Positions 11,965-12,921 of a stretch of 64,000 nucleotides of DNA are shown here, in pieces. Location: assembly GCA_037043455.1 (NCBI GenBank), contig JAWPHD010010335.1, positions 1 to 64,000 of the forward strand, written 5' to 3'. The stretch comes from Cyrtodaria siliqua. Lineage: Eukaryota > Mollusca > Bivalvia > Adapedonta > Hiatellidae. The notes beneath the pieces are model-generated. The model ran no database searches and was not told the DNA's origin. It saw nothing but the letters and a program-made list of their open reading frames with translations. The translations under genes were made by a program, and so were the position numbers. Positions within the stretch are counted from its first letter, which is position 1. Each line of letters starts with the position of its first letter.

Positions 11965-12915
11965 TTATTTAATATTTTCAATATCCTTAAATGGAACCCA
12001 ACTATTGAAATCCTCATTGTAGCCCTTCCATTTAATCAATGCTTGTTTTTTTTTATAATCACGTCGTATTACTTTTTCAATCCTGAATATTTCTTGCTTT
12101 GCTTTTATCATTTCTAATTCATAAAAACTGCCATCAATGTTTTCGTTGTTTAAATCTTTTATTTTGTATGTCACAGTATTTGTGTTTTGAATTTTATCAA
12201 CAACAAATATTTCTTCAGTCCAATTTGGGGTATAACCTTTCTCAAACGTTCTTTTATATTTACTAATTCTAACAGTATCCCCTATTTTAAACTTTGGCTT
12301 AATTTGATTACTTTTTATCTTTCCATACAAGTTGAAATACACTGTTCCTTTATTTTTCTCATCACTAGCCTCAATCGGTGTCATTTTAATACTCCGATGT
12401 TTTGTATTATTGTATTTATCAACCATCGTCTGAAGCACGTCTAAATATGTATTTGTATTGTTAGCTGTAAAATATTTCCACATCTTTTCTTTTAAAGTTC
12501 TGTTAAATCGTTCAATTACTACAGCTTTTCCGAAATTAAAAGTGTGATACATTTTGATATTATTATCATCAAGGAATTGCTTAAACGTCTTGTTGTAAAA
12601 CTCCACACCTTGATCAACCCACAACAATTTACGATGTCTCCCTGTACTGATTATTTGTTTGAACGCTTTAGTAATATCTAAACCAGTTTTATTTGGAACT
12701 GGCGCAACCCAAGCATATTTGCTAAACACATCAATAACAGTAAGCAAATATGTAGTACCTTTATTATACTTTGAAAACGATTGCATGTCAACCAAATCAG
12801 CAAACCATATTTTATCAATTTCATTAACAATCACATGGCGTTGAGTGAACTTTCTTCGTATGGGCTTATGAACTTCATCTGCTAACTTATCAGTACATTT
12901 CAACGCCTTTTCTAG
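11965..12915 (-). CDS. Retroviral-like DDE integrase with C-terminal chromodomain
   Basis: This is the rve-superfamily integrase of Polinton-like elements, which catalyses insertion of element DNA into the host genome. The frame from the slippery site to the stop is about 316 residues. Catalytic residues are visible: first Asp in WFADLVDM, second in LLWVDQGVEFYN, and the Glu in VVIERFNRTLKEK. An SH3-like segment (FKIGDTVRISKYKRTFEKGY) and a chromodomain (VIRRDYKKKQALIKWKGY, SWVPF) follow. All domains look complete, with no internal stop. There is no ATG before the first catalytic Asp; the first in-frame ATG follows it in DLVDM. There is also no promoter-like motif in front. The frame is -1 relative to the PLA2 gene just upstream and is entered at an A AAA AAC site, so it is most probably made as a PLA2-integrase fusion by ribosomal frameshifting. 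A decayed in-frame fusion is the alternative. Confidence 0.9.
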   Translation of the reverse strand, partial: LEKALKCTDKLADEVHKPIRRKFTQRHVIVNEIDKIWFADLVDMQSFSKYNKGTTYLLTVIDVFSKYAWVAPVPNKTGLDITKAFKQIISTGRHRKLLWVDQGVEFYNKTFKQFLDDNNIKMYHTFNFGKAVVIERFNRTLKEKMWKYFTANNTNTYLDVLQTMVDKYNNTKHRSIKMTPIEASDEKNKGTVYFNLYGKIKSNQIKPKFKIGDTVRISKYKRTFEKGYTPNWTEEIFVVDKIQNTNTVTYKIKDLNNENIDGSFYELEMIKAKQEIFRIEKVIRRDYKKKQALIKWKGYNEDFNSWVPFKDIENIK

Positions 12916-12921
12916 TTTTTT
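12837..12921 (-). promoter_or_regulatory. Predicted -1 programmed ribosomal frameshift signal
   Basis: On the minus strand the heptamer A AAA AAC (12921-12915) sits in register with the PLA2 frame and is followed at once by its TAG stop. After a 7-base spacer (TAGAAAA) comes GGCGTTGA (12907-12900), which pairs perfectly with TCAACGCC (12844-12837) across a 55-base loop. Slipping back one base enters the integrase frame exactly. Heptamer, spacer length and stem match canonical -1 frameshift signals (established knowledge). That it works is inference. Confidence 0.7.

Follow-up and report, generated by a model that had tools for sequence, protein, structure and literature searches.

In the bivalve Cyrtodaria siliqua, a PLA2 gene ends in a conserved heptamer, A AAA AAC, which probably (we would put it at roughly 85%, judging from sequence comparisons) causes some ribosomes to slip back by one base, so that the integrase encoded downstream would be produced solely as the C-terminal portion of a PLA2–integrase protein. 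A programmed -1 frameshift had been proposed in a preliminary description of the window (the whole stretch of 64,000 nucleotides that was analysed), and the proposal is supported by the retention of both heptamer and register among related copies and by selection acting on the two frames, from which we infer the fusion protein. We regard the PLA2–integrase frameshift as very likely; its mechanism is known, and what is new is where it occurs. The element which carries it is virus-like and mobile, with many copies spread through one large genome.

The junction between the PLA2 and integrase frames

The features of the two genes and of their junction are listed in Table 1. What had been described for this copy was recovered to the base: the PLA2 frame ends in CCA AAA AAC TAG on the minus strand, the heptamer is followed by a 7-nt spacer opening with the TAG, GGCGTTGA, 55 nt and TCAACGCC, a slip of -1 enters the integrase frame exactly, and the integrase frame has no ATG ahead of its first catalytic Asp. 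The integrase frame is closed upstream by a TAA at 12940–12942, with eight open codons before CTA, the first codon that would be read after a slip. The upstream protein had been described as a PLA2, to which we add the DUF5679 domain. A profile built from its PLA2 relatives matches parvovirus (AAV) VP1 chains (1.6e-14), and in the alignment of these relatives H97 and D98 are invariant and the YCGPGNP loop is largely conserved, as expected of a parvovirus-type PLA2. The integrase profile matches integrase chains (best 8.1e-6; PFV integrase 2.6e-5). We also note a direct repeat of 261 nt (97% identical) at 9128–9388 and 13466–13726, the two copies lying 4.3 kb apart and the latter just upstream of the PLA2 gene.

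Table 1. Features of the PLA2 and integrase genes and of the junction between them in the window.
Feature	Position	Strand	Details
0-frame ORF, DUF5679 and PLA2-like	12912–13376	-	154 codons plus stop; ATG at 13374–13376, TAG at 12912–12914
DUF5679 domain	13269–13370	-	Pfam PF18930, 2.4e-8
PLA2-like domain, HDYC motif and YCGPGNP loop	12972–13181	-	Pfam PF08398, 1.5e-15
Slippery heptamer A_AAA_AAC	12915–12921	-	In-phase X_XXY_YYZ type; AAAAAAC in 39/44 copies with the -1 arrangement
0-frame stop TAG	12912–12914	-	Immediately 3' of the heptamer
Predicted hairpin, 5' arm GGCGTTGA	12900–12907	-	7 nt past the heptamer; TAG opens the spacer
Predicted hairpin, 3' arm TCAACGCC	12837–12844	-	55-nt loop; both arms exact in 50/62 copies
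-1-frame integrase ORF, stop to stop	11965–12939	-	rve and Chromo; would be translated from 12915 on after a slip
rve integrase catalytic core	12544–12813	-	Pfam PF00665, 2.6e-12
Chromodomain, integrase C-terminus	11971–12084	-	Pfam PF00385, 2.2e-7; HP1/CBX5 chains matched

The two frames are open together over 28 nt (12912–12939), and this overlap holds one in-phase canonical heptamer where 0.064 would be expected by chance over the eight possible positions (the chance rate was taken from 13 in-phase canonical heptamers in the 1614 codons of seven ORFs of the element). We discounted splicing, because an overlap of this length would leave no room for an intron.

Perfect 8-bp stems starting 5–9 nt downstream are found at 91 of 6285 positions on the sense strand of the element, and those with at least five G/C at 5/6285, which is as many as the stem of the heptamer alone would yield. 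The fold of the 125-nt junction has a z of -1.81. When 89 segments of 90 nt from the PLA2–integrase region were compared, the two with the lowest z (-3.27 and -2.72, or -2.60 and -2.12 with other shuffles) were those that contain the stem and begin at -5 and +10 relative to the heptamer; in raw folding energy one segment (+160) lies slightly below them. The stem has a pair probability of 0.98–1.0 in the 50 of 62 genomic copies with exact arms. The covariation that had been suggested as a check was not seen, as no two-sided arm change occurs among the 62 copies; four one-sided changes keep the pairing and eight copies break the stem. Diversity in the arms is 0.0254 compared with 0.0665 in the rest of the integrase, but 9.4% of random block pairs are as low as the arms, which are thus not clearly less variable, and the four-fold sites of the integrase (87 sites within the family, median diversity 0.045) vary too little to reveal constraint on the predicted stem.

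Copies in the source genome

There are at least 123 integrase matches in the source genome (2.88 Gb in 26948 contigs). Junctions were read at 88 loci, a set in which some places are represented more than once and which includes 20 short loci (L009–L028); leaving out the short loci and removing six duplicates from the 68 long ones gave 62 distinct copies, including that of the window. The integrase is in the -1 arrangement in 44 of these, fused with the PLA2 frame in 17 (16 by the addition of one base and one by the loss of two), and in the third register in one copy. The heptamer itself is AAAAAAC in 39 of the -1 copies, with AAAAAAG and AAAAAAA found once each and three copies having a sequence which does not follow X_XXY_YYZ. 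In some other copies the 0-frame stop is TAA, or is replaced by CGA with a stop a few codons later. The heptamer and the -1 register, whose conservation had been proposed as a check on frameshifting, are in this way both retained within the genome, and in far relatives they can be recovered from protein frames, the heptamer from two overlapping ones (see below).

All of the fused copies came from a search made with a fused query (17/29 of its copies) and none from the other two sets (0/33), so that outside this selection every copy, the window included, has the -1 arrangement (33/33). It should be noted that several of the 17 carry stops and not all are fully open. Open frames of at least 400 codons, taken as a sign of fusion, were seen in 0/123 of the integrase matches, in 2/150 with a PLA2 query, and in 1/117 and 2/111 of other lists, rising to 7/150 with a query that extended by a few residues into the integrase; these lists overlap, and the fused-query search, which lists many fused copies, is excluded from the counts. 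On a maximum-likelihood tree built with the junction columns removed, the fused label changes 13 times, at least nine of these being forced by supported branches, and the mean for shuffled labels is near this at 15.0; L037 and L042 form a near-identical fused pair. Copies with a continuous frame had been named in advance as evidence that would speak against frameshifting. Such copies do exist (17/62), but within the source genome they occur as isolated, scattered events and therefore do not overturn it. We read them as repeated events after insertion or as errors of assembly in the A run, and the best reading of them in this genome is as dead-end indels at or close to that run.

Both frames are under purifying selection. 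The pooled pairwise dN/dS is 0.271 for PLA2 against 0.895 for the same columns read one base off, and 0.133 against 1.236 for the integrase, the pairs behind the pooled values being non-independent, as the copies compared are related. As dN/dS is low in both frames, both proteins would have been in use while the family spread.

Relatives in other families and the alternatives to frameshifting

PLA2-only proteins of other families (26–86% identical) share a common ending in which KLGLG is followed by a linker of variable length and then by Lys-Asn. A KLGLG-like motif is present in 126 of 173 PLA2 clusters, the 47 without it being set aside, and of those with the motif 13 run on (11 into integrase and two into other sequence), with KN present in 71 and absent from 42. 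Thirteen of the KN tails merely end there, mostly as GKKN, and 58 continue, the residue after KN having a codon that starts with G (G, V, E, A or D) in 45 of these. A -1 reading was attempted for 30 KN tails (41/71 were too short), with codons chosen to fit and with 200 shuffles per tail as a control on that choice. Read in this way as an integrase N-terminus, 18/30 tails beat all of their shuffles and 12 did not; KKR opens the decoded peptide in 14 of the 18, and in six of these the decoding is exact over 14–15 residues (P0265, P0237, P0203, P0250, P0212 and P0270). Enumeration shows that a 0-frame xKNy together with a -1-frame KKR can only be encoded by A AAA AAC G. The reverse test used nine integrase clusters of 337–345 aa with long N-termini beginning MG, and in eight of these the N-terminus read one base on is a PLA2 C-terminus (mean scores of 69–93 compared with 12–19 for shuffled targets), with P0116 failing. 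The same slip site and register therefore appear to be present in families whose PLA2 is 28–41% identical to that of the window, the heptamer in these being deduced from two protein frames held in different database entries.

In the families nearest to the window, the PLA2 and the integrase probably occupy different ORFs of a single contig (P0130/P0008, P0122/P0118, P0126/P0011 and P0128/P0109), a pairing of clusters suggested by source contigs of equal listed size. Annotated relatives of the integrase include one from the coral Oculina patagonica and one from a Trichoplax MELD virus. Scans of viral contigs for DNA of the distant families gave no confirmed relative, and 29 loci on genome contigs with distant PLA2-like genes, all titled as bacteria, were not used.

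Continuous PLA2–integrase proteins are also found, in 29 of 120 integrase clusters by pattern or 34 by precomputed Pfam labels, and one of the continuous-frame clusters (P0058) has 98 member sequences. A seventh A would be expected to leave a KKR pattern, which is seen in 18/29; at least two of these (P0033 and P0099) match only through a KKR lying earlier, and in P0033 and P0070 the join lies further downstream. Nine PLA2 clusters enter the integrase in frame via a short linker with no slip signature (P0143, P0144, P0147, P0162, P0165, P0167, P0175, P0176 and P0180), and P0136 and P0228 do so through a lysine run. The nine look like one clade with a truly fused gene in which the continuous frame is normal; frameshifting is therefore not universal, and the PLA2–integrase fusion is itself probably functional. 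The structure model of a natural fused ORF has a pLDDT of 47.1, with only part of the PLA2 stretch staying above 70 for long. Among the PLA2 tails we also observed long lysine runs replacing K-N in P0136, P0141, P0228 and P0241, as if the A tract had expanded, and a cysteine-rich tail, CHRKKKCCAA, in place of KN in P0156 and P0159.

The continuous ORFs of the genome and of the databases, and the short-linker clusters, could be taken to mean that a continuous PLA2–integrase ORF is the functional gene and that the -1 copies are its decayed versions. We give this very little credence, since every copy found outside the fused-query selection is -1, the fused copies are scattered over the tree, the database fusions have arisen in different ways (the seventh-A KKR pattern or joins further downstream), and independent decay would not yield the same heptamer in families as far apart as those described above. 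Separate translation of the integrase, by internal initiation or re-initiation or from a transcript of its own and with the overlap being incidental, is only slightly easier to accept. A TTG is the fifth integrase-frame codon after the slip in 62/62 copies, and it alone among seven near-cognate codons reaches at least half of the copies before codon index 18; database integrase ORFs also often begin near this site (P0002, P0012 and P0065), with Met called where relatives have Leu (P0012 and P0065 compared with the fused ORFs P0015 and P0058), as if from a bacterial-type TTG start. However, a conserved ATG of the integrase's own, which we looked for ahead of the catalytic Asp, is not seen, with an in-frame ATG in at most 3/62 copies at any one position, and out-of-frame ATGs are common (at +17 in 59/62 copies and at +37 in 58/62). 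The called starts in integrase-only clusters are scattered, lying anywhere between 3 and 65 residues ahead of the ELH anchor, and separate translation would leave the conservation of A AAA AAC G unexplained.

Slippage of the RNA polymerase at the A run, adding one A to some transcripts and joining the frames in the mRNA, is unlikely, though we would not dismiss it as readily. The seventh-A copies demonstrate that one added A is sufficient to join the frames, and the IS3-family element IS1447 is described as using transcriptional slippage (PMC6211511). The run here is A6 followed by C, however, while seven A or more were required in IS1447 and a minimum of nine had been suggested, in both cases for a bacterial polymerase (PMC6211511). 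A6C is likewise the site deduced from proteins of the far families, 3/14 of them having a longer run (P0213, P0214 and P0233), and polymerase slippage would not depend on the C or on a hairpin located 7 nt further on. Ribosomal slippage at A AAA AAC remains our preferred reading, and this heptamer is listed among the most shift-prone on mammalian ribosomes (PMC5009743).

The element, comparable systems and the expected products

The window shares an rve integrase with a chromodomain with the Polintons/Mavericks and adintoviruses, the integrase of the latter being described with a C-terminal chromodomain (PMC11071296), and that of the window likewise ends in one. Partial ORFs are seen among the neighbouring genes. 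A fragment at 18058–18369 (-) has a match to a terminase-like phrog of the large-subunit family (2.2e-6) and one to Pox_A32 below the Pfam cut-off (0.0067), and is possibly the C-terminus of a packaging ATPase. The capsid-like ORF at 14104–15231 (-) has no Pfam or PHROG match, its best PDB sequence match (E 0.37) is not credible, and its single-sequence structure model has a pLDDT of 36.9; a protein-primed PolB was not matched among the ten ORFs scanned in the window. The adenovirus protease cleaves at a consensus of (M/I/L)xGx-G. A small ORF beside the capsid-like ORFs, at 15396–15830 (-), holds LTGAG and LSGRG, which fit this consensus, and could be a pVI/pX-like minor virion protein. Elsewhere in the window, a 300-nt piece of a 504-codon plus-strand ORF is duplicated 1.1 kb on (19300–19599 and 20445–20744, 98% identity), long ORFs at 46364–48719 (+) resemble by eye the reverse transcriptase of a non-LTR retrotransposon, and tandem arrays with 32-bp and 19-bp units are found from 107 and at 40132–40796.

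If the heptamer acts as we propose, most ribosomes would stop at the TAG and release the DUF5679–PLA2 protein, while some, paused by the predicted hairpin, would have their Lys and Asn tRNAs re-pair on AAA AAA and would continue into CTA GAA AAG, giving a minor product made up of DUF5679, PLA2, the integrase core and the chromodomain. Such a slip would keep the ratio of integrase to PLA2 low and would tie the integrase to the destination of the PLA2 protein.

Retroviral gag-pro-pol genes use a canonical -1 heptamer with a downstream structure, and their integrase is part of the minor fusion product. The junction described here has a heptamer of this kind with a predicted stem downstream, and would likewise yield the integrase within a minor fusion product, but only the integrase is shared between the two systems, the partner here being a PLA2 protein and the fusion including no reverse transcriptase. 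By analogy with Gag-Pol, attachment to the PLA2 protein could bring a few integrase molecules into each particle. In layout the junction is also like that of IS1, in which the upstream zinc-finger DNA-binding protein InsA is joined to the transposase (InsAB') by a -1 slip at AAAAAAC with a downstream pseudoknot having been proposed (PMC12428005). IS1 is however bacterial and small, whereas the element here is large and virus-like, with DUF5679 and a phospholipase in the upstream product and an integrase of retroviral type, bearing a chromodomain, as the enzyme. The IS1 example raises an alternative use for the slip, in which it may serve to regulate dose together with DNA binding as in InsA/InsAB'.

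Parvovirus-type PLA2 is known in some Polintons (PMC4642659; PMC5803895), and a paper on Polinton-like viruses likens it to that of parvovirus VP1, a lipase which opens the endosomal membrane (PMC4642659). In Sf Mavericks, unlike here, the PLA2 (in CAP) and the integrase are separate ORFs (PMC5803895). We offer only tentatively, and with more doubt than confidence, the suggestion that the -1 slip in Polintons hangs a few integrases on a virion-associated, membrane-breaking phospholipase, each particle then bringing an integrase of its own across the endosomal membrane and on to another genome, as a Gag-Pol-like form of packaging in a eukaryotic DNA element that extends across deeply diverged families. 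The integrase of the Trichoplax MELD virus (P0105) is 61% identical over 95% of the query and has an N-terminus (MLSYCIRERKYT...) resembling the DUF5679 part of the window's protein by eye, although it is a single continuous frame with no PLA2 between the DUF5679-like part and the integrase; from this protein, DUF5679 could be the integrase's own N-terminal domain.

Eukaryotic DNA viruses with known ribosomal frameshifting are relatively few, and a review found no hint of recoding in adenoviruses (PMC8310308). In adintoviruses, -1 frameshifts have been predicted using KnotInFrame in Penton and Hexon-Adenain (preprint, PMC11071296), in a passage which does not mention the integrase, and the available text of a 2016 recoding review mentions neither Polinton nor Maverick. 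Among the matches listed we found no paper on a frameshift in a Polinton integrase or on a PLA2–integrase fusion, in a search whose coverage stopped short of most subscription journals and of the founding adintovirus paper.

For annotation, these observations are a warning that calling Polinton integrases from internal starts may truncate them. If conserved, the slip site would explain how an integrase with no conserved start codon is expressed, and it would set the dose of the integrase, as A6C does for the transposase of IS1; it would also suggest that the integrase travels with a capsid-type phospholipase.
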